Assembly (NCBI GenBank): GCA_024691425.1
Contig: JAILNQ010000123.1
Coordinates: 124,001 to 188,000, forward strand
From: Lachnospiraceae bacterium
GTDB lineage: Bacteria; Bacillota; Clostridia; Lachnospirales; Lachnospiraceae
Direction: 5' to 3'
DNA: 64,000 nucleotides
Below the pieces are notes generated by a model. That model did no database searches. It saw only the letters and a list, made by a program, of their open reading frames with translations, and was not told where the DNA came from. A program made the position numbers and the translations under genes. Every line of letters begins with the position of its first letter. The first letter of the stretch is position 1. Shown here one piece after another: positions 19,108 to 46,741 of this stretch.

Positions 19108-20328
19108 TTACGACAAATAGTTCCACGGGCTGACATACGCTCCGTCAAGTCTTACCGAAAAATGCAGATGCGGTCCCGTGCTCCTTCCGGTGGAACCTAC
19201 GCATCCTATCTGCTCGCCTCTTGCGACCATAGTGCCCGATCCGACCGAAACAGAACTTGCATGCATATAGATCGTTATCAGGCCGTCACCATGATCTATC
19301 ATGATATAGTTGCCCATCGTCGGCGAATATGATGCCGCGATCACCTCGCCGTCATATGCGGCCAGTATCGGTGAACCGCTCGGTGCGGCCATATCGACTC
19401 CGTTATGGAACTGCTGATTTCCGAGTATCGGATGCGTTCTGTATCCGTAATCGTCCGATATCCTCGTATATGAAGGTGCAGGCCATTTAAACTGGCCGCC
19501 GTCATAAACTATGGTTTTCTTGTTCTCTGCAAGGAGGCGCTTCTTCTCTTCAAGTATGGCGGCCTCGAGGTCTTTTATTATCTGATCCTGCTCGGCTATC
19601 ATCGCCTCATATTCGGCAATGGCGGCCTCTTTATTGCTGATATCTCCCTCGTATACCGTTATCTCTTTTTCCTTGTCCTCCATGAGGGCTTCAACGGCAT
19701 CCTGTTCGTTCTTTACTGCCGCACGCGCATCCTCAAGCTCCAGCTTCTGGGCTATAAGCTCTTCTTCTTTTGCGGCAACGGTTTCCTTCGCGAGTATATA
19801 AGAATCGAGCATGCGCTTGTCATAAGCGGAAATGCGCGTTATGAACTCTGCCTTGTTCAGAAACTCCGCGAAGCTTTTTGAGGTCAGGAGCATTTCTGCA
19901 GTTGATGTCTCCCCGCGCTCATACATGAACTTCACGCGCCTCTTCATAGTGTCATACTGCTGCGCCTCAACTTCTTTTGCTTCTTCGAGTTCTCTTTCTG
20001 TCGTCTCGATCTCGAACTCCTTGTCGGAGATGAGGCTCGTCAGAGTATCTATCTTGTCATTGATATCAGAAAGCTCGGAATCAAGTTCCTGTATGTAGTT
20101 CTCAAGATCGTTTTTTGTAGTCTCGAGGCTGGCAAGAAGTGATTTTACGTCAGTGAGGTTGCTTTTGAGTGATTTCCGCTCTTCTTCGGCCTTTTTCTTG
20201 GATTCCTCACTCTCTCTTATCTTGTCATTCGTAAGGGAGGCCGCATGCACAAATAGCGGCACATGTGCCGCTAAGAATGACGTAACTATCAACATTGCCA
20301 CAAAACGCGCTCCCCGTCTGCGTTTCAT
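19108..20328 (-). CDS. EnvC-like M23 peptidase / murein hydrolase activator
   Basis: A 406-residue secreted protein. A signal peptide spans residues 1-29 (cut near VHAAS). A long coiled coil follows (about 33-285), the part that contacts FtsX in EnvC and PcsB homologues. The LytM/M23 domain is at about 290-403, with HNGVDMAA and GPHLHFSVR, the positions where zinc ligands of active M23 peptidases stand; the first ligand region keeps His-x-x-x-Asp and the HxH pair is complete, so it may cut peptidoglycan itself instead of only activating amidases. It is encoded directly after ftsE-ftsX and before ctpA, the expected context of an FtsEX-controlled wall hydrolase. Confidence 0.92.
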   Translation of the reverse strand: MKRRRGARFVAMLIVTSFLAAHVPLFVHAASLTNDKIRESEESKKKAEEERKSLKSNLTDVKSLLASLETTKNDLENYIQELDSELSDINDKIDTLTSLISDKEFEIETTERELEEAKEVEAQQYDTMKRRVKFMYERGETSTAEMLLTSKSFAEFLNKAEFITRISAYDKRMLDSYILAKETVAAKEEELIAQKLELEDARAAVKNEQDAVEALMEDKEKEITVYEGDISNKEAAIAEYEAMIAEQDQIIKDLEAAILEEKKRLLAENKKTIVYDGGQFKWPAPSYTRISDDYGYRTHPILGNQQFHNGVDMAAPSGSPILAAYDGEVIAASYSPTMGNYIMIDHGDGLITIYMHASSVSVGSGTMVARGEQIGCVGSTGRSTGPHLHFSVRLDGAYVSPWNYLS

Positions 20329-21956: not shown

Positions 21957-23045
21957 CTACTGATCAAAATCTTCCATATAACGCATGTACTTGACGACCA
22001 TCAGAGCGATCTTGAACGTGATCGCATCCTCGAACACTCTAAGGTCGAGCCCCGTCGTCTTCTGAAGCTTGTCAAGACGGTACACGAGCGTATTACGGTG
22101 TATGTACAGCTGACGGCTCGTTTCCGAAACGTTCAGGCTGTTCTCAAAGAACTTGTTGATCGTCATAAGAGTTTCTTCATCGAACTCGTCCGGGCTCTTC
22201 CCGTCGAAGATCTCTCTTATGAACATCTTGCATAAAGGTATGGGCAGCTGATATATGAGACGCCCGATACCGAGTGAGCTGTAAGCTATGATATCCCTGT
22301 CATCAAAGAATATCCTTCCGACGTCGAGCGCCATCTTCGCTTCCTTGTATGACTTCGAAACCTCACGTATCTCATTTACTATCGTTCCGTATGAAACGTG
22401 GCAGGTATTCCCTGTCTGTTTGCTGACGATCTCAAGAACCTGGCGTGCTGCCTTATCAACATCCTCGTAAGTTTCATTCGCGGCAAGTTCCCTGACGATT
22501 ATAATGCCCTTCTCGTCAACCGCCGTGATAAAGTCCTTCGTCCTTGATTTGAAGAAGGTCCGAATGCTCTCGAGCATGTTCACTTCTTTTGCCGAAGGCG
22601 TTTCCGCTATTATGATTATCCTTCGCGCCTCTGCATCAATACGCAGCTTCTGTGAACGCGTATAAATATCTACGAGAAGCAGATTGTCGAGCAGGAGGTT
22701 CTTGATGAAGTTATCCTTATCGAACCTCTCCCTGTATGCTATCAGCAGATTCTGTATCTGGAACGCCGCAATCTTTCCTATAGTATATGAATCCTCAGTG
22801 GTACCCTGCGCAACAAGAATGTACTCTATCTGAAGCTCATCATATACTTTGAAAAACTGATAGCCCGAAATCTCCTGGCTGTCCGCAGGCGACTGAGTGA
22901 AGCTCGCCGCGGCCTCGTGATAGTTGATCGTTTCCTTGAAAGTTGAGGCAAGAACCTTTCCGTCAGCATCGATAACCGACAGTTCTACCCTCGTGATCCC
23001 CTTTAACCCCTCAATAGTACTCTGAAGTATCTGATTAGAAATCAT
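21957..23045 (-). CDS. CdaR/PucR-family transcriptional regulator
   Basis: A 362-residue regulator. The N-terminal 125 residues look like a sugar-diacid-recognition-type sensor domain (VELSVIDADGKVLAST), and the C-terminus is the PucR-type HTH (NVSETSRQLYIHRNTLVYRLDKL). Members activate genes for sugar diacid, purine or amino acid use; the ligand here is unknown. The ATG at 23045 has AAGGAG 6 bases upstream, better than the ORF-track start 6 codons earlier. It lies directly before ftsE, which is an unusual neighbour for this family; a shared transcript would tie the ftsEX module to its promoter. Confidence 0.85.
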   Translation of the reverse strand: MISNQILQSTIEGLKGITRVELSVIDADGKVLASTFKETINYHEAAASFTQSPADSQEISGYQFFKVYDELQIEYILVAQGTTEDSYTIGKIAAFQIQNLLIAYRERFDKDNFIKNLLLDNLLLVDIYTRSQKLRIDAEARRIIIIAETPSAKEVNMLESIRTFFKSRTKDFITAVDEKGIIIVRELAANETYEDVDKAARQVLEIVSKQTGNTCHVSYGTIVNEIREVSKSYKEAKMALDVGRIFFDDRDIIAYSSLGIGRLIYQLPIPLCKMFIREIFDGKSPDEFDEETLMTINKFFENSLNVSETSRQLYIHRNTLVYRLDKLQKTTGLDLRVFEDAITFKIALMVVKYMRYMEDFDQ

Positions 23046-23093
23046 ACCTTTCTCCTTTGGCATCCGTCTATAAGCCTGTTAACCCCCACAGAC

Positions 23094-29987: not shown

Positions 29988-30929
29988 TTAGCGTCCGCAT
30001 CTGTAGACTATGTCATCCCATCTCTTATCAACTTCGGCCTGGAACGCCTCGATGAGATGCTCGTTTCCCGGTGCGAAAAGATGCTTGAATCTACCCTGCT
30101 CTCTTAAGAAATCTTCGATCGGAAGTTTCTTTTTCGGCTCATAGGTCAACCTCCAGCTTCCGTGGTCAACCTCAAACATAGGCCAGTAGCACGTATCGAT
30201 CGCAAGCTGGCAAATCTTCATGACATCCGCAGTCTCATATCTCCATCCTCTCGGGCAGGGCGCGAGCATATTCAGAAATGCCGGACCTTCCGTATAGATG
30301 GCCTTTTCTGATTTTATGTGTATATCCTTGAAATCCTTCGTGAAAGTCGTCTGCGCAACGTACGGAACATGATGCTCTGCGATTATCGCGGAGAGATCTT
30401 TTCTCGTCTGGATCTTGCCGTTGCTTTCCTTTCCGACCGGCGTCGTGGTCGTGTCGGCAAACTGCGGCGTAGCTGATGATCTCTGAATTCCGGTATTCAT
30501 GTAGGCGCCATTGTCATAGCATACATAGACCATGTCATGTCCGCGTTCCATAGCTCCGGAAAGCGACTGGAATCCGATGTCGTACGTTCCGCCGTCTCCG
30601 CCGAAGGTTATGAACTTGAAGTTCTCTTCCTCGGGAAGCTTTCCCTTTTTCTTCAGCGCACGGTAAGCGGTTTCAACACCTGAAAGAGTTGCCCCTGCAT
30701 TTTCGAACGCATTGTGTATGTAGCTGTCATACCATGCCGTATACGGATACATGAAGGAAGATACCTCAAGACATCCCGTAGCATTTCCGATGACGGCACG
30801 GTCGCCTTCATGCAGAGCACGGAGCACCGCTCTTATTCCTATAGTGGCCCCGCAGCCGGCGCACATCCTGTGTCCGCTCGCCAGCCTCTCCGGCCTGCTC
30901 ATTACTTCTTTGAGATTATATCCTGCCAT
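29988..30929 (-). CDS. porB: 2-oxoacid:ferredoxin oxidoreductase, beta subunit
   Basis: A 313-residue thiamine-diphosphate subunit. It has CAGCGA near residue 23 (cluster-linked cysteines), GGDGGTYDIGFQSLSGAMERGHD for magnesium and diphosphate binding, and DNGAYMNTGIQRSS. The sequence fits PorB of four-subunit pyruvate:ferredoxin oxidoreductases; indolepyruvate or 2-ketoisovalerate as substrate cannot be excluded. It works with the alpha, gamma and delta subunits encoded directly upstream; only one base separates it from porA. The order gamma-delta-alpha-beta is the usual one for Por operons. Confidence 0.92.
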   Translation of the reverse strand: MAGYNLKEVMSRPERLASGHRMCAGCGATIGIRAVLRALHEGDRAVIGNATGCLEVSSFMYPYTAWYDSYIHNAFENAGATLSGVETAYRALKKKGKLPEEENFKFITFGGDGGTYDIGFQSLSGAMERGHDMVYVCYDNGAYMNTGIQRSSATPQFADTTTTPVGKESNGKIQTRKDLSAIIAEHHVPYVAQTTFTKDFKDIHIKSEKAIYTEGPAFLNMLAPCPRGWRYETADVMKICQLAIDTCYWPMFEVDHGSWRLTYEPKKKLPIEDFLREQGRFKHLFAPGNEHLIEAFQAEVDKRWDDIVYRCGR

Positions 30930-30930
30930 G

Positions 30931-32121
30931 TCACTGTCCCTTCCTTGTACGCAGTCCTACATATCTGTGCTGTGCGAATTTTTTGCCCTCTGCAGCTTCG
31001 GAAAGCTCCTTGAATATGCCGCACGCCGTCTCAACCGTAAAATCGCGCCCGGCAAGACCGTACACATAGCTTACCGCTTCAACTTCTGCTCTGTTCATGT
31101 AAAGAGCCGCCGTAACCTCACTCGCAAGCGGTCCCCCGTGTCCGTTATAGCTTTCGCATCTGTCCATGATCGCTACTGCCTTGCAATTTTTCAGTGCCTC
31201 GGCGATCTCTTCCGCGGGGAAAGGCCTGAACACACGGAGCTTCAGCACGCCGGCTTTCATTCCGTTATCCCTCAGCTCATCAACGGCGGTTTTCGCAGTT
31301 CCCGCGGCCGACCCTATGATCAGCATTATATAATCCGCATCTTCCGTTCTGTACTGTTCGAACAGTTCGAATCCGCGGCCGAACTTTTCTTTGAACTTCG
31401 CTGCAACTTCCCTGATAACTTCCTTTGACCTTATCATCGCCTGTTCCTGGTTGTATTTGGCTTCCATGGAATAAGCAGAAATTGCATATGGTCCGACTGC
31501 AACAGGCTTTCCGGGATTGAGCAGGAACTCCTCGGGATGATATTCTCCGACAAATTCCTTTACATCCGCATCTTCCTCGAGCAGTATGTTCTCTACCGCA
31601 TGGCTCGTAATGAAACCGTCCTGACAGACCATGACAGGAAGATGTACCCTGCTGTCCTCAGCAATAGGAAACGCCTGAATGAAATTATCATAGGCTTCCT
31701 GATTGTTCTCAGCGTATATCTGTATCCACCCGGTATCCCTTGCTCCCATCGAATCCGAGTGGTCGCAGTTGATGTTTATAGGTCCGGATAGAGTTCTGTT
31801 TACAAGCGCTAATACGAGCGGAAGACGGTTCGATGCCGCAACCAATAGCTCCTCCCACATGAATGCAAGTCCGCACGAAGAAGTTGCAGTCATGCTTCTT
31901 GCGCCCGCTGCTTCTGCGCCTACTGTTGCGCTCATCGATGAATGCTCCGACTCAACGGGAATGAACTCAGTATCCATCTCGCCGTTAGCTATATAAGAAG
32001 AAACCATCTGGGGTATCTCCGTTGAAGGCGTTATAGGAAATGCAGGCATTACATCAGGATTCACCTGACGTATCGCATAGGCAACTGCCTCGTTTCCTGA
32101 CATACGGTCTTTCTTTGACAT
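30931..32121 (-). CDS. porA: 2-oxoacid:ferredoxin oxidoreductase, alpha subunit
   Basis: A 396-residue alpha subunit. It starts SGNEAVAYAIRQVNPDVMPAFPITPSTEIPQ, the substrate-binding pyrimidine domain, and includes EDADYIMLIIGSAAGTAKTAVDELRDNGMKAGVLKLRVFRPFP, the transketolase-C-like part. It binds the 2-oxoacid next to the thiamine cofactor of PorB. The ORF track begins 21 codons earlier; the ATG at 32121 is preferred because it overlaps the delta-subunit stop by one base (TGATG) and homologues start at SKKDRMSGNEA. It duplicates the function of the one-chain PFOR at 10297-13809, perhaps for another oxoacid or for the reverse reaction. Confidence 0.92.
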   Translation of the reverse strand: MSKKDRMSGNEAVAYAIRQVNPDVMPAFPITPSTEIPQMVSSYIANGEMDTEFIPVESEHSSMSATVGAEAAGARSMTATSSCGLAFMWEELLVAASNRLPLVLALVNRTLSGPININCDHSDSMGARDTGWIQIYAENNQEAYDNFIQAFPIAEDSRVHLPVMVCQDGFITSHAVENILLEEDADVKEFVGEYHPEEFLLNPGKPVAVGPYAISAYSMEAKYNQEQAMIRSKEVIREVAAKFKEKFGRGFELFEQYRTEDADYIMLIIGSAAGTAKTAVDELRDNGMKAGVLKLRVFRPFPAEEIAEALKNCKAVAIMDRCESYNGHGGPLASEVTAALYMNRAEVEAVSYVYGLAGRDFTVETACGIFKELSEAAEGKKFAQHRYVGLRTRKGQ

Positions 32122-32426
32122 CACATACCTCCCTGCTTCATGGTTATCGCTCCGAACGGGCAGGCTTTCTCGCATATCCCGCATCCCTTGCAGTGATCCA
32201 TGTCAAAATCGTCGCGCTTGCCGTCTTTTACCGGAATGCATCCGTCAGGACAGACCGGTGTGCACAGAAGGCACTGCTTGCATTTTACGGAATCAAATAC
32301 AGGTGTAGCTGTCCTCCACTCACCTGTCTTAAAATCTGCTGATGTGCCTCCGGCGAAAATCATGAGGCCTTCTGTAAGGTCTTCACATGGAGACTGTTCA
32401 TTGATATTGCTTATATCGGTTCTCAT
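32121..32426 (-). CDS. porD: 2-oxoacid:ferredoxin oxidoreductase, delta (ferredoxin) subunit
   Basis: A 101-residue 2x[4Fe-4S] ferredoxin-like subunit. The clusters are CKQCLLCTPVCPDGCIP and CKGCGICEKACPFGAI. A 45-residue N-terminal stretch (GEWRTATPVFDSVKC) is typical of PorD, so it is not a free ferredoxin. It carries electrons from the thiamine site of PorAB to external ferredoxin. It lies 5 bases after the gamma gene and overlaps porA by one base. Confidence 0.93.
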   Translation of the reverse strand: MRTDISNINEQSPCEDLTEGLMIFAGGTSADFKTGEWRTATPVFDSVKCKQCLLCTPVCPDGCIPVKDGKRDDFDMDHCKGCGICEKACPFGAITMKQGGM

Positions 32427-32431
32427 TCCGC

Positions 32432-33034
32432 CTACCTTTCCGAAGCCGCGCTGAGCTGGTCTTCAAGTGCATCGAATGTCATCGTCAGAGCTTTCATGTT
32501 ACCGTCGATGACCTCGGGCTTCTTTGCGAATTTGTGTTCATATGAAGCTCTCATCTCTTTTATGAATGATTCCTTGTCCATGACTGATGAGACCGCAACA
32601 GCTGCCGCAAGCATCGGCGAGTTCGGAAAATACTTCCCGAGAGCTTCTACCGATATCGTACGCGCATCCACTGTATATACACGTCCTTCATAACCGTTCA
32701 GAAACTGTCTTACTTCATCTGCCGTCTTATCCGTATTCACGATGATAGCACCTTCCGTCTTAAGACCTGCAGTCACATCAACGGATGCTAAGAGCGACTC
32801 ATCTACAACTATAACGAGATCGGGATTGTATATATTGGAATGAACCCGTATCTCCTTATCACTTATCCTGTTGAACGCGGTTATCGGCGCACCCATCCGT
32901 TCAGGGCCGTACTCGGGAAAACCCTGTACATATGCACCTGTCTTGAAACAGACGTCGGCAAGCAGCAGCGCCGCCGTTTTAGCACCCTGTCCTCCGCGTC
33001 CATGCCATCTGATCTCAATGCTTTTGCTGCTCAT
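32432..33034 (-). CDS. porG: 2-oxoacid:ferredoxin oxidoreductase, gamma subunit
   Basis: A 200-residue gamma subunit with the hallmark IRWHGRGGQGAKTAALLLADV at the N-terminus and FPEYGPERMGAPITAFNRIS further on. It forms the CoA-linked part of the heterotetramer. The ORF track begins with a TTG five codons upstream; the ATG at 33034 is favoured by AAGGA 8 bases before it. It is the first gene of the por operon, whose promoter lies about 60 bases upstream. Confidence 0.93.
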   Translation of the reverse strand: MSSKSIEIRWHGRGGQGAKTAALLLADVCFKTGAYVQGFPEYGPERMGAPITAFNRISDKEIRVHSNIYNPDLVIVVDESLLASVDVTAGLKTEGAIIVNTDKTADEVRQFLNGYEGRVYTVDARTISVEALGKYFPNSPMLAAAVAVSSVMDKESFIKEMRASYEHKFAKKPEVIDGNMKALTMTFDALEDQLSAASER

Positions 33035-33063
33035 CTCATTTCCTTCCAAATAATACAGATTCT

Positions 33064-33117: not shown

Positions 33118-35469
33118 TCACTTTTTTTCCGCAAAATACAGTCTTGAGGAGAAATCCGGGAACACTCTTGTTCTGCTGTTGAAGCCCGTAGATGAAAACG
33201 CGGGCAGAAGATGCACCCCTGCTTCAGAAAGGACATCCCCATACACTGTATAATCTTCCTGCTCCCCGTCAAGTTTCACGAACTTTGATACAAGATCATG
33301 AACGGCAGATCCGTTCTTCACATGCACAGGCGCTATCATGTTTATGAGGTCTCCGAACATTCTGACATCAAGTTTGAACGGCCTGTTGTAGAACCTGTAT
33401 AAAGCATCTTTCTCGAGTCCGTGCATTTTTATTGTTCCGCTCTGATCATTCGGTACGGACAGTTTTCTATAGTACAGGGCAACGCCTCTAGACCGGTCGG
33501 CCGATACGGCATTGAACGAGGCGGTATTGCCGTCATAAATATTCTCACCCCTGTAAAATCTTCCCATCTGAAATACGCTGCGCCATTTCTTGTACAGGCT
33601 TATCTGCTCCCTTATCGCCTCAAGCGTTCCCGTATCGAGATCGCACAGGTTGCATTCATAACCGAGAGCTCCGAACGCCGCGACATCGAATCTCGTCTCA
33701 AGCGGCGTAACACGGAGCGTCTGATGATTCGGTACCGATGAAACATGCGCGCCCACCGTCCTTAGCGGATATCCGTAACTGTATCCGGTCTGTATCGCAA
33801 CCCTTTCTGACGCATCCGTATCATCACTTCCCCACATCTGGGAAAAATAGCACAGCATACCGAGATCAGATCTGTTTCCTCCCGATGCGCATCCTTCAAA
33901 AAGAATGTCCGGAAATCTCTTCGTGAGCTTATCGAGTATCCCGTACAGTCCCATGATGTACCTGTGAGCCGTCTCGCCCTGCTGCGAAGGAGCCAGAGAA
34001 GGAGCATATACATCGCTCATCGTCCTGTTCATGTCCCACTTGACGTAATCTATGTTTCCGGTTTCAAACAGGTCTGTCAGCGTATTTTCCAGATAAGTGC
34101 ACACTTCCGGATTCGCAAGGTCGAGTATCATCTGATTCCGCCCCGGTGAATGCGGCTTTTCCGGTACCTTCATCGCCCAGTCAGGATGCGCCCTGTAAAG
34201 ATCGCTGTCTTCGCTGATCATTTCCGGTTCAACCCAGATCCCGAATCCGATCCCGAGATCATGTATCTTTTTTGACAGGCCTTTTACCCCGCCCGGAAGC
34301 TTCCTCTTATTCGGATACCAGTCACCGAGGGACGATCTGTCATCATTTCTTTTCCCGAACCATCCGTCATCCATAACGAGAAGCTCAATGCCGACCGACT
34401 TCGCTTTTCTCGCCATCCGAAGGAGCTTGAACTCCGTGATGTCAAAATACGCCGCTTCCCAGCTGTTGAGAAGGACAGGCCTTTCCATATTTGCCCATTC
34501 TCCCCGGAGTATATGGTCCGAAACGAATCTGTGCATGTTATATGACATGCCGTTGAATCCTTCATCCGAAAACGTGAACACTGCTTCGGGCGCTTCAAAT
34601 TCGCTGCCCGGCTCGAGACAGAATTCAAACCCTTTAGGGTTGATCCCGCTCAAGAATCTGAGTTTTCCGAATTCACTGACCTCGGCGATCTCCGTATGAT
34701 TGCCGCTATATATCAGATTAAAACCGTAAGCTCTGCCTGAATTCTCGCTCGTGCTTTTTTCGCTGAACATGACAAACGGATTCGCAGTTGACGAAGATGC
34801 ACCGACGCACGAATCATTGACGATCCTTCCTCTTTTCAGCTCATGGTCGACCCTTCCCATCTCCCTTATCCATGCACCGTTGAATGTCGTAAAAATCATG
34901 TCTTTTCTGTCAGTATCGATCTGCATGGACATGAAGCGGAGGATCCTCGCGCTGTCTTTTCCTCTGTTGATAAGCTTTGCAGACCTGGTTATGACATCGC
35001 ACTTTTCGAACACATAATATGACAGCTCAACAGCAAGATCATACTGCCTGTCGGCAAGCGTTATTATGAGAGCGCTGCATTCTCCGCCTTTGTCATAGGA
35101 TGAAGGAAGAGTGCTGAGCGGTATTTTTCCGTTTATGATCTTCGCACTCTCGAACACGAAATCGGAAGTCCTGCTTCCGTCCGCATGAACAACCTCAATG
35201 AAAGGTTCACGGTTGTCACTTTTTCCGTTCGCAGAAAACTCGAGTCTTATATCATTCAGCGTAAATGATGAGTTCTCCTCGTTATAAACGTTATTGTTCC
35301 CCGGAACGAACTCATGCTTCTCGATCAGCGCTTCTATCGTTTTACTGTCTTCAAGCCTTATCCTCCTGCCGTAGTAAAGATGCTCCAGATATCCGATATC
35401 TATCACGGTAAACACATATGCCGTATTATCAGTCTCCAATATGAATGCATTGTCAATCTGTCTTATCAT
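33118..35469 (-). CDS. GH36 alpha-galactosidase
   Basis: A 783-residue cytoplasmic alpha-galactosidase of family GH36, about the usual length (720-750) of AgaN/RafA-type enzymes. It has the N-terminal beta-sandwich (1-320), the catalytic barrel with LLVMDDGWFGKRNDD near 365, the nucleophile Asp479 in YVKWDMNR and the acid/base Asp in MWGSDDTDASER (549/550), then a C-terminal beta domain. It cuts alpha-1,6-galactose from melibiose, raffinose or stachyose. It is the last gene of the GH2-symporter-GH36 operon; no signal peptide is present, so the sugar is imported first. Released galactose would enter the GalK/GalT pathway encoded next to it. Confidence 0.96.
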   Translation of the reverse strand: MIRQIDNAFILETDNTAYVFTVIDIGYLEHLYYGRRIRLEDSKTIEALIEKHEFVPGNNNVYNEENSSFTLNDIRLEFSANGKSDNREPFIEVVHADGSRTSDFVFESAKIINGKIPLSTLPSSYDKGGECSALIITLADRQYDLAVELSYYVFEKCDVITRSAKLINRGKDSARILRFMSMQIDTDRKDMIFTTFNGAWIREMGRVDHELKRGRIVNDSCVGASSSTANPFVMFSEKSTSENSGRAYGFNLIYSGNHTEIAEVSEFGKLRFLSGINPKGFEFCLEPGSEFEAPEAVFTFSDEGFNGMSYNMHRFVSDHILRGEWANMERPVLLNSWEAAYFDITEFKLLRMARKAKSVGIELLVMDDGWFGKRNDDRSSLGDWYPNKRKLPGGVKGLSKKIHDLGIGFGIWVEPEMISEDSDLYRAHPDWAMKVPEKPHSPGRNQMILDLANPEVCTYLENTLTDLFETGNIDYVKWDMNRTMSDVYAPSLAPSQQGETAHRYIMGLYGILDKLTKRFPDILFEGCASGGNRSDLGMLCYFSQMWGSDDTDASERVAIQTGYSYGYPLRTVGAHVSSVPNHQTLRVTPLETRFDVAAFGALGYECNLCDLDTGTLEAIREQISLYKKWRSVFQMGRFYRGENIYDGNTASFNAVSADRSRGVALYYRKLSVPNDQSGTIKMHGLEKDALYRFYNRPFKLDVRMFGDLINMIAPVHVKNGSAVHDLVSKFVKLDGEQEDYTVYGDVLSEAGVHLLPAFSSTGFNSRTRVFPDFSSRLYFAEKK

Positions 35470-35487: not shown

Positions 35488-36873
35488 TCATCCCTTTTTC
35501 AGCTGCTGAGTTATCTCAGCCATCTTTGCTTCATTGAGAATGAACTTCCTTCTGAAATATATTATCGCAGCAAAGAGCCCGATCACAGGGATCACGGTCA
35601 TGGTCATACGCAGACCTAACCGTGCCGCCGCATCTGTCGAAAGTGAAAAATCAATGCTCTTTTCCGCCTCGGTTATCTCCTCGCTTTTCAGATTGTTTAT
35701 CGACAAGCAGATCGATGCAATAAAAGCGGCAATACCTGATGCCAGCTTTACAACAAATGTCTGCATTGAAAAGATGACCGACTCATCCCTCCTTTTGTTC
35801 TTCAACTCGCCGTAATCAACACTGTTGGCAAGAAATACCGTTGTCAGGACCTGTAACACACCGTTTGCCGCAAATATGAAAAATCCGGGAACAAACAGGA
35901 TGAACACGCTCTTCATTGAAGTAAAGGTTATCCCGAAAAGACACGCATATCCGATAACCGCGCTGGCGATACAGATATAGAATATCTTGACGTTCTCCGT
36001 TATCTTTCTCAGAAGCGGATAGAATATCATCATGGACAGTATCTGGATCGCTCCACCGAACATGTTGAAATACGTATAGCTCTCATACCAACCGACACCG
36101 CCGAAATCATATTTGAAGAAATAGATGACCAGATTTGATGTTATATAAACGGAACAGTTGATCAGGACGATAGCCACTACCGCCGTCATTGCCTGATCAT
36201 TTCCGACAAGCGCCGAAAACATCTGCTTAACCGATGCGGTCTCCATGTTGACCGTGGATTTTTCTTTTATGTTAATACATGTAATGGAGACGAAAAATAT
36301 GAACAGGACCGCCACAATAAGGGAAAACCACATGAATCCGATGCGCTCATCTGATCCTCCGAGCCAGTGAACCGCCATCATGGTGATGACCGTGACGATC
36401 GCAGAACCGACACCCGCACAGCTCCTGCCGAGCGTGGACATGCCTTCCCTCTCTTTACCTGATTCAGTGAACGCAGGTATCATCGACCAGTACGGTATGT
36501 CCATCATCGTATATGTTATTCCCCACAATATGTACGATATAGCGGCATATGCGACCATTCCCTTTCCGTCAATGGAGGGCGGTGCGGCGAACATTGCAAA
36601 CAGCACGGCCGCATTTGTGACTGTACCTATCATGAGCCATGGTCTGAACTTCCCCCAGCGGGTCTTTGTTTTGGCCACTACAATGCCCATTATCGGATCG
36701 TTGAAGGCATCAAATATGCGGGCAGCCAGAAGTATAAAACCCATGGCGATCGCAGAAACGCCGAGGATGTCCTGATAGTAGTACAGGATATAGCTCGCCG
36801 AGAGCATGTATACCATATCTTTTCCGACGGCGCCGAGTCCGTACGAGACTTTCTCTTTTAATGATAATTTCAT
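35488..36873 (-). CDS. GPH-family glycoside:cation symporter
   Basis: A 461-residue membrane protein of the glycoside-pentoside-hexuronide family (MelB-like, 12 helices). Family features: KEKVSYGLGAVGKDMVYMLSASYILYYYQDILG at the N-terminus, RIFDAFNDPIMGIVVAKTKTRWGKFRPW in the first cytoplasmic loop and DYGELKNKRRDESVIFSMQTFVVKLASGIAAFI near 350. It would bring galactosides in with sodium ions or protons. Its ATG overlaps the stop of the GH2 gene by 4 bases, and the GH36 gene follows after 18 bases; this fits a transporter for melibiose, lactose or galacto-oligosaccharides. Confidence 0.93.
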   Translation of the reverse strand: MKLSLKEKVSYGLGAVGKDMVYMLSASYILYYYQDILGVSAIAMGFILLAARIFDAFNDPIMGIVVAKTKTRWGKFRPWLMIGTVTNAAVLFAMFAAPPSIDGKGMVAYAAISYILWGITYTMMDIPYWSMIPAFTESGKEREGMSTLGRSCAGVGSAIVTVITMMAVHWLGGSDERIGFMWFSLIVAVLFIFFVSITCINIKEKSTVNMETASVKQMFSALVGNDQAMTAVVAIVLINCSVYITSNLVIYFFKYDFGGVGWYESYTYFNMFGGAIQILSMMIFYPLLRKITENVKIFYICIASAVIGYACLFGITFTSMKSVFILFVPGFFIFAANGVLQVLTTVFLANSVDYGELKNKRRDESVIFSMQTFVVKLASGIAAFIASICLSINNLKSEEITEAEKSIDFSLSTDAAARLGLRMTMTVIPVIGLFAAIIYFRRKFILNEAKMAEITQQLKKG

Positions 36874-39311
36874 CTTGTACCTCCCTCTCCTGATACCTTG
36901 AACTCAAGTTTTACCGTCTGTCCTCTTCCGTCCGTAATACTCAGTATCCCCTTTCCGGTTCCGTTTGAGCGTACATATGTGCCGCCTGCCCCGCCGGAAA
37001 GCGATAATATGTGAGGTCCTATAATCTCTATCGCGCCCTCTGTCGCAAACTCTACCGGATCGTTGCAGAAGTTCAGTATATTCCCGTTCTCGTCGACTGC
37101 CAGAAGACGAACGAGTGCAACATCATATGTCTTTTTTTCGAAAAGAACTTCCGAGCTCGCCATGGCTTCAATGTGCATCTGTGAAGAAGGTGAGATAACT
37201 GTTTCCTTTACGACCTCACCGTTTTTTACAGCCTCGAACCTGTATATGCTGACTTTCCCGCCCCAGTTCGCAACGTATTTATTGTACAGTTCCACGGCAT
37301 CGCTGATTCTCATGCGATACCTGGCCGCAATGACTGCGGCCTTAGCCATGAACGCTGGCGAAAGCCGGTACATGCCATGCTCCGCAACGGAATTGAGAAG
37401 GCTTTTTATCTCCCTTGCCTTACCGGGCGGCATGCCTTCATGCACAGTAAGAGCATCTCCGACATAGTCATCTATTTTAACAGGTCCATGGATAAGTCCG
37501 CTGAAAGATGAGTTCTTTACATCGTATTCCTTTATAAGTTCATCATTCTTGTACATCCTGACGCTATCTGCGTTTGATATTATATAAACCTCTCCTGTGT
37601 TCCCGCCCGGATGCTCTCCTATGTTCATCGCCGAGGATATCTCAAGGACCGGGGTCCGGTCCTGCTGCGCAGCGTATACATATGCGGCAAGCTTCGGATT
37701 CCTGAACATATCGCACACTCCGTGATAGCATATCCTGTCTCCGCTTCCGAAATCCTTGTGAGTATTGTAATCGAACATGCACCATCCGAATGAGCCTGTT
37801 ATCTCCGGATCCCTTGCAGCAGAATCCAGCACCCTGGCATGACGAAGCATATGCTCGAGCCTGTGGTCTTCACTGTCGAAAGCCTTTGTCGGGAACATAT
37901 GGCCGTTATACTCCGTGATCAGATAAGGCTTGCCGGAATCCGATGTCACCGAATTCTTCTTCGCCGTTCCGGCATTTTCGCCGTAATGGCTGAAATCGTT
38001 GAATGTATAAACATCCTCCTGAAAGATCCCTTTTCTGTAGCATCTGACGCCTCCGGTCTGCCTGTCGGGATCCTCTGCATGTGCTAATGCATTCGTTCTC
38101 GCATAGAATTCCTCGTCATCGACCGATTCGTTGATCCTGACTCCCCAGAGGATGATCGAAGGATGATTGATGTTCTGACGTATCATGTCCTTGACATTGT
38201 CAACCGCCTTATCCTTCCATTCTTCACCTCCGATATGCTGCCAACCTGGTATTTCTGTGAACACTAAAAGCCCGATCTCATCGCATCTGTCAATGAAGCT
38301 CTGGGCCTGGGGATAATGCGAGGTCCTGACTGCATTCACTCCGAGCTCATTCTTTAAGATGTCGGCGTCGAGTTTCTGCATGGAATCAGGCATGGCATAT
38401 CCGACATAAGCATATGACTGATGCCTGTTGAGTCCTCTTATCTTGAGTTTCCTTCCGTTTAAGAAAAATCCGTTCGCCCGAAAAACTGCCTTCCTGAAGC
38501 CGAACGTGTCGATCCGCTCATCGGCTGTACCTTTCGAACTGTCCGCAAGAACCGTAACAAGCTCGTAAAGCGCAGGATTTTCGACATCCCACAGTTCCAC
38601 GTCATCGATCCTTACGGCGATTTCCGTGTATCCTTCCGTAACTTCTGTCCGGTCGCTGCCTAACTTCTCTTCCGAGCCTTTCCGCCTGATGTAAGCGGTG
38701 AGCACCTCCCGCCCGCTGCAGCCTTCATTATAGACTTTTGCGATCACCGCGCCCTTGCGGCAGAATCTCTTGCCGTCCTTTTCGAACCTTTCGATCAGCT
38801 TGGTGCTTATCACCGTCCGCGAAATGTATGCCCGGGGTTTTACCTCTATATATACATCTCTGTATATGCCGCCGTAAGTCATGTAATCGATCGCGAATCC
38901 GAAAGGCGGCTGATCGAGAGTTTCATTGCTGTCAACTCGAACGGCAATGACATTATCATGACCGTACTCAAGATCAACGCTTATATCAACTGTAAATGCC
39001 GTGTAGCCGCAATGATGCGTGTATGATTTTCTGCCATTGACATAGACTGTCGCCTCATGAGCAACACCTTCAAACGTCAGAAGTACCATCTTTTCTTTCC
39101 ATTCTTCCTCGGCGAAAAGATGCCTTCTGTATAAGCTCACCATCTGGTATATGCCTTCATCAAAATAATGAAACGGCGTTTCCTTTACGGTATGAGGTAT
39201 CAGGGCATCGGTCATCTGTCCTTCATCATAATCCGGTAGCGTCTTTTCTTCCGAAAACGTCTCTGAAAACTTCCATCCTCTGTCTATATATATCCTTCCG
39301 GTGTTCATCAT
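36870..39311 (-). CDS. GH2 beta-galactosidase
   Basis: An 813-residue GH2 enzyme with the usual order of jelly roll (1-160), immunoglobulin-like domain (160-275), catalytic TIM barrel (275-560) and C-terminal sandwich domains. The acid/base is Glu395 in LWGVRINES and the nucleophile Glu467 in YLITEYNGHM. Family GH2 also includes beta-glucuronidases, but the gene order with GalK, GalT and GH36 favours beta-galactosidase. It is cytoplasmic. Two ATG codons lie in a row; the second (39308) has GGAGG at better spacing. It is the first gene of the galactoside operon, and the promoter region with the 18-base palindrome lies between it and galK. Confidence 0.93.
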   Translation of the reverse strand: MMNTGRIYIDRGWKFSETFSEEKTLPDYDEGQMTDALIPHTVKETPFHYFDEGIYQMVSLYRRHLFAEEEWKEKMVLLTFEGVAHEATVYVNGRKSYTHHCGYTAFTVDISVDLEYGHDNVIAVRVDSNETLDQPPFGFAIDYMTYGGIYRDVYIEVKPRAYISRTVISTKLIERFEKDGKRFCRKGAVIAKVYNEGCSGREVLTAYIRRKGSEEKLGSDRTEVTEGYTEIAVRIDDVELWDVENPALYELVTVLADSSKGTADERIDTFGFRKAVFRANGFFLNGRKLKIRGLNRHQSYAYVGYAMPDSMQKLDADILKNELGVNAVRTSHYPQAQSFIDRCDEIGLLVFTEIPGWQHIGGEEWKDKAVDNVKDMIRQNINHPSIILWGVRINESVDDEEFYARTNALAHAEDPDRQTGGVRCYRKGIFQEDVYTFNDFSHYGENAGTAKKNSVTSDSGKPYLITEYNGHMFPTKAFDSEDHRLEHMLRHARVLDSAARDPEITGSFGWCMFDYNTHKDFGSGDRICYHGVCDMFRNPKLAAYVYAAQQDRTPVLEISSAMNIGEHPGGNTGEVYIISNADSVRMYKNDELIKEYDVKNSSFSGLIHGPVKIDDYVGDALTVHEGMPPGKAREIKSLLNSVAEHGMYRLSPAFMAKAAVIAARYRMRISDAVELYNKYVANWGGKVSIYRFEAVKNGEVVKETVISPSSQMHIEAMASSEVLFEKKTYDVALVRLLAVDENGNILNFCNDPVEFATEGAIEIIGPHILSLSGGAGGTYVRSNGTGKGILSITDGRGQTVKLEFKVSGEGGTR

Positions 39312-39328
39312 GATTCCTCCGATTATTC

Positions 39329-39420
39329 TTGCGCGTATATGTCTTTTGTGTATATTATGGTAAGGTCAGAATGCATTCTGACTACGAGTCCATATTATCA
39401 GAATATGGTCATTCACTCAA
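39329..39420. promoter_or_regulatory. Face-to-face promoters with shared 18-bp palindrome
   Basis: Rightward (galK): TTGCGC (39329-39334), 16 bases, TATATT (39351-39356). Leftward (GH2 operon): TTGAGT (39415-39420), 17 bases, TAATAT (39392-39397) with TG one base upstream (extended -10). Between the two expected start sites is GTCAGAATGCATTCTGAC (39365-39382), a perfect 18-base palindrome. A second short inverted repeat, CCATATT-5-AATATGG (39390-39408), covers the leftward -10 box. One regulator bound at the palindrome would control both genes. The palindrome is seen directly; the promoters and the regulation are inference. Confidence 0.65.
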
Positions 39421-39439
39421 TAAAGAACGGAGGCACAAA

Positions 39440-40723
39440 ATGGGCGCATCAGCAGTTACTGACGAGAGACTTGAGGAGATATACGGCAAAAGCCTTGTCG
39501 CATATCAGAGGGAGCGCATTGATAACGTTCTGAAGCATTATTCGGAAATGTTCTCGGCAGATGATGACATACATTTTTTCTCTGCCGCAGGACGGTCGGA
39601 AATAGGCGGAAACCATACTGACCATCAGCGCGGACAGGTTCTTGCGGCATCGCTTTCCATAGACTCTCTCGCAGCTGCATCGGCCGTGCCTGAAAACGTC
39701 ATAACCCTGCACTCTGAAGGTTACGACACATACAGGATAGACCTTGATGATCTTGAGATCCGTGATGAAGAATCCGGAGCTGCGGCGCTTATAAGAGGCG
39801 TGGTGGCAGGATTTTCGAAGAAAGGATTCAAAACCGGCGGATTCAATGCATACGTTACGAGTGATGTCCTCGGAGGGAGCGGGCTTTCATCGTCCGCTTC
39901 GTTTGAATCGCTGATCGGGGTAATTCTTTCCGGACTGTATAATGACGACGCTGTTTCTCCCGTTGACATCGCCAAGATCGGCCAGTACGCCGAAAATCAT
40001 TACCTGAAAAAACCGTGCGGGCTCATGGATCAGATGGCATGCAGCGTCGGAGGTTTTGTGCACATAGATTTTGCAAAGAACGGGGGCGGGGATCCGTTTT
40101 TCGATGACTCATATCCCTCGATACGCCGCATAGATTTCAACCCCGAAGACTACGGATATACTCTGTGCATCACGGATACGAAAGCGAGCCATGAGGACCT
40201 CACCGACGAATACGCCGCAATACCTGCGGAGATGAAAGAGGTCGCGGCATTTTTCGGAAAGGAAGTGCTGTCTGAAGTATCTGAAAAGGAGTTCCTAGAG
40301 AAAATTCCGGAGATCAGGAAGACGACCGGGGACCGTGCAATAGTGCGTGCCATTCATTTCTTTGAAGAGAATAAGAGAGTCATCTCAGAAGCCGGCGCGC
40401 TGCTAGCGGACGATTTTAACGGTTTCATGAAAAGCTTTGCGGCCTCGGCTAAATCATCATTCGAATATCTCCAGAATGTTTTCTGCGTCAAGGATGCCAG
40501 GCAGCAGAGCATGTCGATCGCTCTTGCGGTCAGCGACTTATATCTTGCAGCTAACGCAAAAGGTGCGGCCAGAGTACACGGCGGCGGATTCGCAGGAACG
40601 ATACAGACTTTCGTAAAGAGTGAATACGCAGACGAATACATAAAGGCAATGGATGCTCTTCTCGGGGAAGGAAGCTCACGCATCTACACCATAAGAAAGT
40701 ACGGCTGCATCCGGATAATCTGA
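39440..40723 (+). CDS. galK: Galactokinase
   Basis: A 427-residue GHMP kinase that phosphorylates galactose to galactose-1-phosphate with ATP. Galactokinase signature: GRSEIGGNHTDHQRG near residue 50; ATP loop: LGGSGLSSSASFE near 143; KKPCGLMDQMAC near 188, with the catalytic Asp; C-terminal motif: RVHGGGFAGTIQ near 385. The ORF track begins 37 codons earlier; I chose the ATG at 39440 because GGAGG is 7 bases upstream and homologues start near TDERLEEIYG. It faces galT, with 14 bases between the stops, and is divergent from the GH2 operon. Confidence 0.96.
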   Translation: MGASAVTDERLEEIYGKSLVAYQRERIDNVLKHYSEMFSADDDIHFFSAAGRSEIGGNHTDHQRGQVLAASLSIDSLAAASAVPENVITLHSEGYDTYRIDLDDLEIRDEESGAAALIRGVVAGFSKKGFKTGGFNAYVTSDVLGGSGLSSSASFESLIGVILSGLYNDDAVSPVDIAKIGQYAENHYLKKPCGLMDQMACSVGGFVHIDFAKNGGGDPFFDDSYPSIRRIDFNPEDYGYTLCITDTKASHEDLTDEYAAIPAEMKEVAAFFGKEVLSEVSEKEFLEKIPEIRKTTGDRAIVRAIHFFEENKRVISEAGALLADDFNGFMKSFAASAKSSFEYLQNVFCVKDARQQSMSIALAVSDLYLAANAKGAARVHGGGFAGTIQTFVKSEYADEYIKAMDALLGEGSSRIYTIRKYGCIRII

Positions 40724-40737
40724 ATCCTGTCCTTTTT

Positions 40738-42324
40738 TCATTCAAACTGGCTTATGAACCGCATAAATGCTTCGATTCCTTCAGGCGTCTGTTTATAGAC
40801 GCCTGCATTTTCGAGCACATGCGAAAATACGATACCGGTCTCCTGCCTTAAGAATTCTTTGATGGCGTCGGTTTCTTTTTCACGGTTTTTTTGCAGCGTG
40901 TCTACGTTATCCTTAAGGATCTGCCTTATCCATTCCTCGTGCACATTAAGCTTCTCGTCTTTTTTCAGCTCGCAGCAAACCGCTTCTGTTACGTCACCAT
41001 CCGCACGGCTCAAGCTGTTTTCAATGATCTCTTCAATCATTCCGAGCTCATACCGTAGCCTTGCCGGAAGTATCGCCATGCCCATCACCTCGATGAGCCC
41101 TATGTTCTCTTTCTTTATATGATGGTACTCGCTATGAGGATGATAAACGCCCAGAGGATGCTCTGCTGTCGTTATGTTGTTCCGGAGCACGAGGTCCATC
41201 TCATATCTGTTTCCGCGCATCCTCGCTATCGGAGTTATCGTATTGTGAGGCGTTTTTATGCCGTCCTCGTACGTATGCGCAAAAATGAACGCCTGCTCAT
41301 CCGTGTAGTTTCTCCATGCATCAAGTATCATCGTGCAGACCTTGATAAGCTCTGCCATGTTCTCAGTTCTGAGCCTTATAGTCGTAAGCGGCCAGTTTAT
41401 CAGTCCTGCTTCAATATCTTCATAGCCCTTCAGCGTGAACTTCTTTGCATATCCCGCCCTTACCATAGGGAATTCATAGCATCCGCCCTGGAAATGATCA
41501 TGCGTCAGTATCGATCCGCCGACTATCGGAAGGTCCGCATTCGATCCGACCGTGTAGTGCGGGAACGCCTGTATGAAATCGAGGAGCTTTGCGAAAGCAT
41601 CCTCATCGATCTTCATCGGAGTGTGCTCTGCATTGAAAACTATGCAGTGCTCGTTGTAATAGACATATGGGCTGTACTGAAGATAATATGACTGCCCGCA
41701 TAGCTTTATCGGAATGATGCGGTGATTCTGCCGTGCAGGATGCGTCAGCGTTCCTGCGTATCCTTCATTCTCCCGGCACAGAAGACAGAGCGGATAACCT
41801 GACTTAGGGGCATTCAGCGCATTCGCTATATCCCTCGGATCCTTCTCCGGCTTCGACAGGTTTATCGTTATGTCAAGATCGCCGAAAGGCGTTGAAGACA
41901 CCCACTTTATATCCTTTGCGATACGGTCGGTCCTGATATAGTTGGTCGCATTAGAAAACGAATAATACCAGTCTGTTGCATCCTTCGGCGAAACCCGGTA
42001 TTTTTCCATGAAGTGTCTGTTCACTGCCGACGGCGGCGGGGTTATAAGCCCCATGATCTTCGTATCAAAAAGATCACGCGAGGCAATAGTGTCGCTTTTT
42101 AATATCCCTTTCGAAACGGCATATTCCGTCATATCCTCAAGGATAAAATGAAGATCACGCGAAGGTGCGCTTCCTCCTTCCGGCTTGAACTCGTCTTCCT
42201 CAAAAAGCTCGAGAAGCCTGTTCCTGCACAGTATCTCGTCATCCTCTTCGATAAGGCCGCATCCTCTTCCGTATGTTATAAGCTCATCTATAAGATCCGA
42301 AACCGATCTGCCGTTTTCGTTCAT
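40738..42324 (-). CDS. galT: UDP-glucose--hexose-1-phosphate uridylyltransferase (class II GalT)
   Basis: A 528-residue class II GalT, the long Gram-positive type (about 490-520 residues). Typical pieces: LITPPPSAVNRHFMEKY near 95, SGYPLCLLCRENEGYAG near 175, VGGSILTHDHFQGGCYEFPM near 265 and AIFAHT/TPHNTITPIAR-type segments near 355. It moves UMP from UDP-glucose to galactose-1-phosphate. The ATG at 42324 has GGAG 7 bases upstream; the ORF-track start is 10 codons earlier and lacks support. It is convergent with galK and has its own promoter with a dyad that shares half-sites with the galK palindrome. Confidence 0.96.
   Translation of the reverse strand: MNENGRSVSDLIDELITYGRGCGLIEEDDEILCRNRLLELFEEDEFKPEGGSAPSRDLHFILEDMTEYAVSKGILKSDTIASRDLFDTKIMGLITPPPSAVNRHFMEKYRVSPKDATDWYYSFSNATNYIRTDRIAKDIKWVSSTPFGDLDITINLSKPEKDPRDIANALNAPKSGYPLCLLCRENEGYAGTLTHPARQNHRIIPIKLCGQSYYLQYSPYVYYNEHCIVFNAEHTPMKIDEDAFAKLLDFIQAFPHYTVGSNADLPIVGGSILTHDHFQGGCYEFPMVRAGYAKKFTLKGYEDIEAGLINWPLTTIRLRTENMAELIKVCTMILDAWRNYTDEQAFIFAHTYEDGIKTPHNTITPIARMRGNRYEMDLVLRNNITTAEHPLGVYHPHSEYHHIKKENIGLIEVMGMAILPARLRYELGMIEEIIENSLSRADGDVTEAVCCELKKDEKLNVHEEWIRQILKDNVDTLQKNREKETDAIKEFLRQETGIVFSHVLENAGVYKQTPEGIEAFMRFISQFE
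40782..40805 (+). other. Perfect hairpin inside the 3' end of galT, downstream of galK
   Basis: CAGGCGTCT, a 6-base loop and AGACGCCTG make a perfect 9-base stem 59 bases after the galK stop, inside the galT reading frame. In the galK direction the bases after it are CATTTTCG, a weak T run. It may stop or protect the galK transcript where the two genes converge. It is also compatible with being only coding sequence. Confidence 0.4.
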
Positions 42325-42367
42325 ATTCATTCTCCTTCTGCTATTGAACAACATCCGATCCGAAACC

Positions 42368-43909: not shown

Positions 43910-46075
43910 CTACAGATCCTGTCGTCTGCGCCTGTCATTGGCATCGCGATAGAATCTCTTTTTTTCTTCATACATTCTCTGATCCGCTTCCATCTTATGC
44001 GAATTATAATCCTCGTCTCCTTGCGAAGCGAACGATCCGCCCAAAGCCACGTGAATGCCCTGCTGTTCAACCATATCCCTTACTTTTTCGATGTTGCTCT
44101 CGAACGTCTCCTTATAATTCTCATAAGTGTACACAGCAAATTCATCGCCACCTAGTCGATAGACGTTATTGCGGCCAAACACTTCCGAGAGTGCGGATGC
44201 CACTTTTTTTATCATCGCATCTCCTGCTTCATGTCCTTCCTTATCGTTCACCACCTTAAGTCCGTTGACATCGCACATGATGAATCCGTACGGTCTTGAA
44301 GTATCAAGACTGTCTCTCTCATATTCACGAAGAGCCCGTCTGTTGCCAACTTCGGTAAGCCCATCATGATAACTGTAATCAACAAGGCGTCTCTGATTGT
44401 CTCTTGTTGCAACAAGCTCGGACAGGAAAAACATGAGAAGTTTTATGATCTCGGATATCTCTTCCATCATATTGACCGGCGGATTGTCTACACCGAAGAA
44501 TCCTATATATGAACCGTTAAGTATGAGCGGTCCCGTAACCAGCGTTTTAGTTCCCTGCGGTTTTAAGAGTTCATACATATTTTCACTGACTTCACGATAT
44601 TTTTCCAGGTCATATATCAGGACATGACCGCCTCTTTCATACTCCTCATACCATGTATCAATGAAGCCTGTATACTTTACTCCCTTGAGGTTATCTATCT
44701 CCGGCGTTACGCCTTCGGCACAGTATTCATACGTATTGTCAAAAGTCCCGTTGCCCATGTCTTCAAATATATATGCTCGGTCGGCGTGAAGTTCACTGCA
44801 CAGATACTCAAGTACTTTTTCGATCTTCTCGTCGGGATCCATAGAGCCCATGATGTACTGAAGCAGATGATTGACAAAACGGTCTCTTTCAAGAGACGTC
44901 TTTTCTCTTGCCCACCAGTCAAATATCTGGAAACCCATGAACAGGAAGAAACTCACAAGCCCGAACCTGAACCAGCTTCCGTGCCATATTGATCCTCTCC
45001 GGGCTACCATATACCTTCCCATATCGATAAACGATGTGGCTATGAAAATAGCCGCGCCTATGTAAAAATATTTCATATAAGAAGAAATCGATCTTCTGCG
45101 GCAGTAGCGCTCGTTGTTTATCAGCATTATGATCAGCCATATCAACTGGATGGCATATGAAAAATAGATCACCGGTACCATCCGATGCATATCAATATCA
45201 TAGGCATATCTTGCCGTAAACAGGCACATTAAACATGCAACAGTAAACACAAAAGACAGATAAGGATATATTTTCTTCTGTTGTTTTGTTTTGGAATTCA
45301 CGAAATAGATCATCGGGAAGCCTGCCAGATGAAGGATCAGATACACGATCTCCCGCGATGCATATGTAGTTCCGGTCAGAAGCTGCGGCAGACCCGTATC
45401 ACACAGGCTCCAAAATCCGAAAAGGATTGCAGAAAGGCCGAGCGCCCACAGTGAGCGCATCATGGGGTTTTTGTACGACATTACAAAAAAGAATGCAATG
45501 ATGACCACTCCGAAAATGATCATCAGAATGGACAGATTCATTCCCGTGATATTACGCCTCATAACGGCGTATCGGTACAGTTCTTCATCTCCTAGCTGAA
45601 TCTCGTTGACTAGTCCACCATGTCTGTCGTTAAAAGCCGTCTCGGCTTCTATTCGGACCACAGCGCCTTCATACTTGGTCCCCAGTCCTATCATATGATA
45701 GGAAATACCATCTCCTGTACCTGTCAGGTTTTCCATGGTATTGAAGGAATACATCTCTTTGTCATTTATATATACGGAAAAATTCAGATTGCTTGTTGAA
45801 AAATAAATTGAATCCGATTCTTCCATCTTTGAGGGCAGAGTCTTTGACGCAGTAAAACTGCCCCCGAGTTTGCCTGCGGTGATCACATTTATCTTGACTG
45901 CTTCCCCCGTATCAAGTATCCAATCACTGGAAAAATCCTGATCTGCAGCTTCCTTATCGGTATGCATGAACTCCTGCATATCGGTATAAAAACAGACATG
46001 AGCCAGCGTCAGAATAAGTATGATAAAATATACGGACACGCAGGCTTTCATCAGCTTGCCTATGTTAGATCTCAT
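43910..46075 (-). CDS. Membrane diguanylate cyclase (7TM, GAF, GGDEF)
   Basis: A 721-residue signalling protein. One helix near residues 10-28 is followed by an outside beta-rich domain (about 30-170), a block of about seven helices (175-385), a GAF domain (about 400-535, RAYIFEDMGNGTFDN through GFFGVDNPP) and a GGDEF domain (550-715). The active site is RLGGDEFAV, complete, and DYSYHDGLTEVGNRRAL is the usual start of the domain; no inhibitory RxxD site is seen directly before it. It should make c-di-GMP in response to an outside signal. It is convergent with the tRNA gene. Gene end and tRNA end lie 10 bases apart. Confidence 0.92.
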   Translation of the reverse strand: MRSNIGKLMKACVSVYFIILILTLAHVCFYTDMQEFMHTDKEAADQDFSSDWILDTGEAVKINVITAGKLGGSFTASKTLPSKMEESDSIYFSTSNLNFSVYINDKEMYSFNTMENLTGTGDGISYHMIGLGTKYEGAVVRIEAETAFNDRHGGLVNEIQLGDEELYRYAVMRRNITGMNLSILMIIFGVVIIAFFFVMSYKNPMMRSLWALGLSAILFGFWSLCDTGLPQLLTGTTYASREIVYLILHLAGFPMIYFVNSKTKQQKKIYPYLSFVFTVACLMCLFTARYAYDIDMHRMVPVIYFSYAIQLIWLIIMLINNERYCRRRSISSYMKYFYIGAAIFIATSFIDMGRYMVARRGSIWHGSWFRFGLVSFFLFMGFQIFDWWAREKTSLERDRFVNHLLQYIMGSMDPDEKIEKVLEYLCSELHADRAYIFEDMGNGTFDNTYEYCAEGVTPEIDNLKGVKYTGFIDTWYEEYERGGHVLIYDLEKYREVSENMYELLKPQGTKTLVTGPLILNGSYIGFFGVDNPPVNMMEEISEIIKLLMFFLSELVATRDNQRRLVDYSYHDGLTEVGNRRALREYERDSLDTSRPYGFIMCDVNGLKVVNDKEGHEAGDAMIKKVASALSEVFGRNNVYRLGGDEFAVYTYENYKETFESNIEKVRDMVEQQGIHVALGGSFASQGDEDYNSHKMEADQRMYEEKKRFYRDANDRRRRQDL

Positions 46076-46165: not shown

Positions 46166-46741
46166 TTATCGCAGATCAGAAGTTCCGGCTGGTAAATCAT
46201 ATAGCCTCTTCAGATATTTTGCTATCGTATCCTTTAAATACTCAGGATCATCCTTCATTCCCTGACGGACCCAGCATGATATGACATTCCATATCGCCCC
46301 GATATTCAGAGCGATCAGGTACTCGCTATCCAGTCCCTTAAAAAGTCCGACAAAAGGATTGTCCGCACTTACCGTTCCCGTCTTATGCAGTAAAAGGTAC
46401 TCATTCATGCAGTTAAGCACCACATGAAGCATATCGTTTTTTTCCAGGAGAATCAACATTTCCCTGTTCTTCTCGACGAATGAAAATATCGTGGAAAGAA
46501 CATCTGCACTGCCGCCATCTACGATACCGAAATAATCCTTCAGATCTTTTCTCACGATCGATAAAAGAACATCATCTTTTGACTCGAAATTTCTGTAGAA
46601 AGTCTTTCTGGCAAGTTTTGATTCGATAAGTATCTGCTTTACAGAAATATCATTGTAAGGATACTGATGCATCAGCGCAAGCAGTGCCTCCGTTATTTCT
46701 CTCTGAGACCTTAATGCTGAAGGGTTTGATGATTCTATCAT
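46166..46741 (-). CDS. TetR/AcrR-family transcriptional regulator
   Basis: A 191-residue TetR protein. HTH at residues 10-55 (REITEALLALMHQYPYNDISVKQILIESKLARKTFYRNFESKDDVL), a pattern common among clostridial TetR proteins with the C-terminal domain of the TetR_C_7/AcrR type. It is divergent from the HXXEE membrane protein gene, with a 131-base shared control region that holds TGACAC/GTGTCA-like words, so the HXXEE gene is the likely target. The ligand is unknown. Homologues are often seen beside HXXEE genes. Confidence 0.88.
   Translation of the reverse strand: MIESSNPSALRSQREITEALLALMHQYPYNDISVKQILIESKLARKTFYRNFESKDDVLLSIVRKDLKDYFGIVDGGSADVLSTIFSFVEKNREMLILLEKNDMLHVVLNCMNEYLLLHKTGTVSADNPFVGLFKGLDSEYLIALNIGAIWNVISCWVRQGMKDDPEYLKDTIAKYLKRLYDLPAGTSDLR

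Follow-up and report, generated by a model that had tools for sequence, protein, structure and literature searches.

The stretch of DNA analysed here (the window, 64,000 nucleotides) belongs to a genome, G000, assembled to 2.56 Mb in 127 contigs with 84% completeness, and the closest named relatives of this genome are Lachnospiraceae. The galactokinase gene galK and a gene for a GH2 beta-galactosidase are located on opposite strands on either side of a 128-bp spacer (39312-39439). On the minus strand, the GH2 gene is followed by genes for a sugar symporter and an alpha-galactosidase, and then by the por genes, which code for subunits of a 2-oxoacid:ferredoxin oxidoreductase. The features of the region are listed in Table 1.

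Table 1. Genes, predicted promoter elements and repeats at and around the galK-GH2 spacer (positions in the window).
Feature	Position	Strand	Remarks
porG/porA/porB, 2-oxoacid (pyruvate-type):ferredoxin oxidoreductase subunits	29988..33049	-	downstream of the GH cassette
GH36 alpha-galactosidase (melibiase family)	33118..35469	-	
GPH sugar:cation symporter, MelB-like	35488..36873	-	
GH2 beta-galactosidase	36870..39311	-	best solved relative is a beta-D-galactosidase
galK promoter, predicted -35 TTGCGC	39329..39334	+	TTGCG retained in most sister species
galK promoter, predicted -10	39351..39358	+	TATATT 39351-39356 (spacer 16) or TATTAT 39353-39358 (spacer 18)
18-bp perfect palindrome GTCAGAATGCATTCTGAC	39365..39382		centre 39373.5; initially transcribed region of both predicted promoters
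Inverted repeat CCATATT-N5-AATATGG	39390..39408		second inverted repeat; covers the GH2 -10
GH2-operon promoter, predicted extended -10 TGA-TAATAT	39392..39400	-	spacer 17
Additional half-site TCAGAAT	39398..39404	+	overlaps the TG of the GH2 extended -10
GH2-operon promoter, predicted -35 TTGAGT	39415..39420	-	TTGAG retained in 6 of the 7 sisters with the pair resolved; TTGTGA in G029
galK, galactokinase	39440..40723	+	
galT	40738..42354	-	convergent with galK in the window
PucR-like protein	21957-23063		Pfam
TetR	46166-46741		Pfam

A rightward transcription start is predicted for galK at approximately 39363-39365 and a leftward start for the GH2 operon at approximately 39385. The predicted GH2 start lies approximately 20-22 bp to the right of the galK start, so the promoters would face each other rather than diverge; the two -10 elements are separate, approximately 40 bp apart, and the predicted transcripts overlap by approximately 20 nt. 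The first-pass annotation had described promoters pointing toward each other, and the prediction agrees with it: an equally good face-to-face pair was obtained in only 2 of 400 dinucleotide shuffles (p ~0.005), and the facing form was also found in the sister genomes G018 and G015.

A 9-of-12 consensus scan detected neither the galK nor the GH2 promoter, since the -35 box of each is sub-consensus. The most enriched -35 sequence in the genome is TTGAC, and both TTGCG and TTGAG are atypical. The assignment of the two promoters as real is supported by their conservation in relatives and not by their consensus score.

A galK of the window's type was found in 12 genomes of the genus, the window's own included, at approximately 70% protein identity. 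In eight of the 12, again counting the window's, galK is divergent from GH2 or por genes and an opposed promoter pair could be resolved, both promoters being present at matching spacing in the seven sisters (G018, G015, G029, G010, G033, G022 and G001). The pair occurs in more than one arrangement. The -10 elements are apart in the window genome, G018 and G015, so that the predicted promoters are face-to-face and 14-22 nt of their transcripts overlap. A symmetric -10, TATATTA, is common to both promoters in G029, G010, G033 and G022, where exactly 18 bp separate the divergent predicted starts; G001 has overlapping -10s and predicted starts that diverge by 13-15 bp. The earlier proposal that each transcript runs through the promoter of the other is thus retained for the window but does not extend to the five sisters with one -10 in common, in which the transcripts diverge.

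Dinucleotide shuffles gave, for the face-to-face form, p values of 0.025 for G018 and 0/400 for G015, in addition to that of the window, and, for the shared -10 form, 0/400 for G010, G033 and G015, 0.003 for G001 and 0.007 for G022 and G029; these values are not independent across the eight genomes, because the genomes are related. The galK upstream region of G015 (L139) scores as both shared -10 and face-to-face, and could be an intermediate. The galK tree gave no resolution of the ancestral promoter geometry. Of the whole observation, the predicted promoter geometry is the part that is conserved and solid.

The work on bidirectional promoters that share a symmetric -10 reportedly goes back to Warman et al. 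2021. In published promoters of this class the commonest distance between the starts is 18 bp, with reciprocal pairing of -7T and -11A (PMC10268837; PMC12825309). The five sisters with overlapping -10s resemble this class, four of them having starts separated by 18 bp, and all five (G010, G033, G022, G029 and G001) have, by prediction, divergent starts within the 7-25 bp that the class allows. In G010, the only genome for which this was worked out, by hand, the A and T of TATATT/TAATAT are reciprocally placed as in the published bidirectional promoters. The window falls outside the definition: its predicted starts do not diverge by 7-25 bp, its promoters face each other, and no single -10 serves both directions, the two elements being located at 39351-39358 and 39392-39397.

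The genes located behind the minus-strand promoter vary. The order GH2-GPH-GH36-por was observed in the window and in G029, and also, within the reach of their contigs, in G001 and G022; GH2-por was observed in G010 and G033, and por stands directly behind the promoter in G018 and G015, as well as in G007, where the promoters are apparently separate. The GH2-GPH-GH36 cassette is complete, cut to GH2 or absent according to the species (L133-L142), with galK and por as constant members. The opposed promoter pair is retained despite the differing downstream genes. Because por stands opposite galK in the cassette-less species, the opposed promoter would not be specific to galactosides, and in those species it would drive the pyruvate-type ferredoxin oxidoreductase operon.

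The orientation of galT also varies: this gene and galK converge in the window genome, G010, G029 and G018 but run in the same direction in G022, G001, G015, G025, G004 and G007, an apparent case of repeated inversion of a single gene within the genus.

The 18-bp palindrome that the first-pass annotation had reported between the promoters is present and exact. Since the predicted starts lie near 39363-39365 and 39385, it extends from about +1/+3 to +18/+20 of both predicted promoters, within the early transcribed region of each, as had been proposed. Its centre falls within approximately 1 bp of the axis of the promoter pair (approximately 39374-39375). The additional half-site TCAGAAT belongs to a stretch, ATATTATCAGAATA, that is retained in G010 and G033. 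No intrinsic terminator (hairpin and T run) was found, and no match to the CcpA cre TGWAANCGNTNWCA was found at up to one mismatch between 39312 and 39439.

Three perfect palindromes of at least 18 bp were observed in the window, where 0.28 would be expected; besides GTCAGAATGCATTCTGAC there are two intragenic ones. A 20-bp palindrome, TAGCGGCACATGTGCCGCTA, is located at 20254-20273, near the start of a PcsB/M23-peptidase gene adjoining ftsX, and an 18-bp palindrome, TCCTATCATATGATAGGA, at 45686-45703, within a GGDEF gene. Analysis of 464 kb of the window's genome yielded four further intergenic palindromes of at least 18 bp, where approximately 0.25 would be expected in intergenic DNA. The excess over expectation is at least 15-fold, as judged with a rough gene mask, which scored the window's own palindrome as genic because a TTG-started frame crosses it. 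A chance origin of the GTCAGAATGCATTCTGAC palindrome is unlikely.

The palindrome could still be a neutral by-product of local mutation, such as the template-switch correction of an imperfect repeat like the TCAGAAT copies, with the promoter pair alone being of importance. This would be in agreement with its confinement to one species, with the availability of raw material in the TCAGAAT at 39398-39404, and with the presence of long palindromes also inside genes of this genome. However, the genome has far more intergenic palindromes of such length than expected, and the one here has its centre at the promoter-pair axis. A neutral origin is considered unlikely, and the palindrome is probably functional. 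Tandem duplication was also tried as the origin of the spacer and rejected: the copies of ATATTAT are separated by 40 bp and those of TCAGAAT by 32 bp, and since these distances differ no single duplication fits.

A functional palindrome may act in RNA. The same hairpin of 7-8 bp, GTCAGAA-TGCA-TTCTGAC, would open both mRNAs and could protect their 5' ends or affect promoter escape, with no DNA-binding protein involved. The distance from the palindrome to the start of either predicted transcript is 1-4 nt. Folding energies are -9.2 kcal/mol for the initial 38 nt of the galK leader (z about -2.3) and -7.9 kcal/mol for the initial 47 nt of the GH2 leader (z about -2.5), although these z-scores merely restate the palindrome. 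A comparable 20-bp perfect palindrome, TCAGGTTTTGCAAAACCTGA, is found in the leader of an unrelated gene of this genome, apparently that of an amino-acid ABC binding protein (L159, 6994-7013). Several points speak against this reading: the loop of a hairpin need not be self-complementary, yet TGCA is palindromic as well; no equivalent is present at the starts of the sister species; and no match was obtained in Rfam. A role in RNA is the main alternative to an operator, though a less probable one.

The palindrome might instead be the operator of a conserved galactose regulon, bound by a regulator of the LacI, GntR or AraC type, as its perfect dyad symmetry and its position over both starts would suggest. 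Its distribution points the other way. The palindrome is missing from all sister intergenic regions examined, though the promoters are kept there, and the 84%-complete genome contains no second copy at up to two mismatches. At three mismatches the 18-mer has two matches in the genome, both in coding DNA. A relaxed 16-mer, TCAGAATNNATTCTGA, occurs at up to two mismatches in 28 places, nearly all of them coding, against 14-32 in Markov simulations, that is, at chance frequency. Among 36 congeners one match to the palindrome was found at up to two mismatches, inside an open frame (L132), and 397 genomes of the family, the window's own included, yielded two other matches at up to one mismatch, both in one conserved gene. 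The lack of a second copy in the genome, together with the intragenic location of the few near-matches elsewhere, argues against a gal regulon. The first-pass annotation had named a lack of recurrence near sugar genes as a refutation of its reading, and a gal regulon site is not supported: no such recurrence was found in the genome, in the 36 congeners or in approximately 395 other genomes of the family.

A hairpin, TCAGAAGTATTTCTGA, whose stem resembles the window palindrome, was observed in the gap that separates the binding-protein gene of a sugar ABC system from its permease genes (L038, 1501-1516; L181, 3479-3494). This weak intergenic match was rejected as a shared element, as it is not above chance.

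Most ORFs between 16 and 55 kb of the window were compared with Pfam, which identified just the TetR and the PucR-like protein, and no LacI, GntR or AraC gene, in agreement with the earlier remark that the neighbourhood has no gal-type regulator gene. Only two LacI genes were found in the 2.56-Mb genome (L184 and L185), both beside alpha-glucan genes; judged by eye from their sequences, these neighbours are amylomaltase-like and alpha-glucosidase-like. Both LacI proteins were discarded as candidate regulators, given their alpha-glucan neighbourhoods and the lack of a matching palindrome. Because the palindrome lacks a second site and is absent from the sister loci, no autoregulated or regulon-type regulator is visible. 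The gene opposite galK in the cassette-less sisters is, moreover, por and not a sugar gene. The galactose-regulon reading is largely refuted and must be regarded as highly improbable.

We propose that the 128-bp spacer carries two oppositely oriented, overlapping sigma-A promoters, such that RNA polymerase bound at one would exclude RNA polymerase from the other. In the window species, the footprints of the two polymerases would collide over the 18-bp palindrome, which would lie beneath the leading edge of both, and each early transcript would cross the opposite promoter. A dimeric regulator occupying positions +1 to +20 of each promoter could then silence galK and the galactosidase operon together, in the way that BirA acts at bioO in Escherichia coli. 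A mutually exclusive promoter pair, with the palindrome as a species-specific shared operator, is given a probability of approximately 0.5.

We infer both the polymerase exclusion and the operator role from the sequence. RNA polymerase would probably occupy one side only at a time in both geometries, because the shared -10 and the face-to-face forms both imply it. The first-pass annotation had suggested a collision of polymerases, and competition between them would be expected. Against it stands the published finding that bidirectional promoters frequently have a basal activity insufficient for real competition (PMC12825309). The perfect dyad, centred on the promoter-pair axis, and the excess of intergenic palindromes speak for the operator; the presence of the palindrome in one species only and the lack of a candidate regulator gene beside the locus speak against it.

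Similar arrangements occur in Escherichia coli, where face-to-face promoters with an internal operator are found in argECBH and a dyad-symmetric operator, bioO, is located between the promoters of bioA and bioBFCD. The bio operon is under the control of BirA, and its promoters are face-to-face (PMC3494674). The window shares with these systems, as far as its predicted starts indicate, opposed promoters of divergent genes with overlapping early transcribed regions and a dyad-symmetric site between the starts (39365-39382). The likeness to bioA/bioBFCD extends to the functional link between the divergent genes, although the window palindrome is shorter than bioO, perfect and not conserved in the sisters, and no candidate regulator gene was found beside it. 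Opposed promoters of divergent genes and overlapping transcripts are shared with argECBH; the genes, the pathway and the sequence of the site differ, and no regulator was identified in the window genome. For the palindrome, a species-specific operator of the bioO kind is the most likely role, with a 5' hairpin at the head of the two mRNAs as the alternative.

By itself, the palindrome is a modest, species-specific lead. It is conceivable, as a speculative and rather doubtful extension, that the promoter pair switched between the shared -10 and the face-to-face form within the genus and that in the window species the split came with a new, perfectly centred operator, whose regulator would couple the expression of lactose/melibiose breakdown, galactokinase and ferredoxin oxidoreductase. 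The locus constitutes a natural series: across eight species one predicted promoter pair beside galK takes either of two known geometries, both mutually exclusive, and the genes on the opposite side vary. This series would allow the effect of geometry on polymerase competition to be tested with matched natural sequences.
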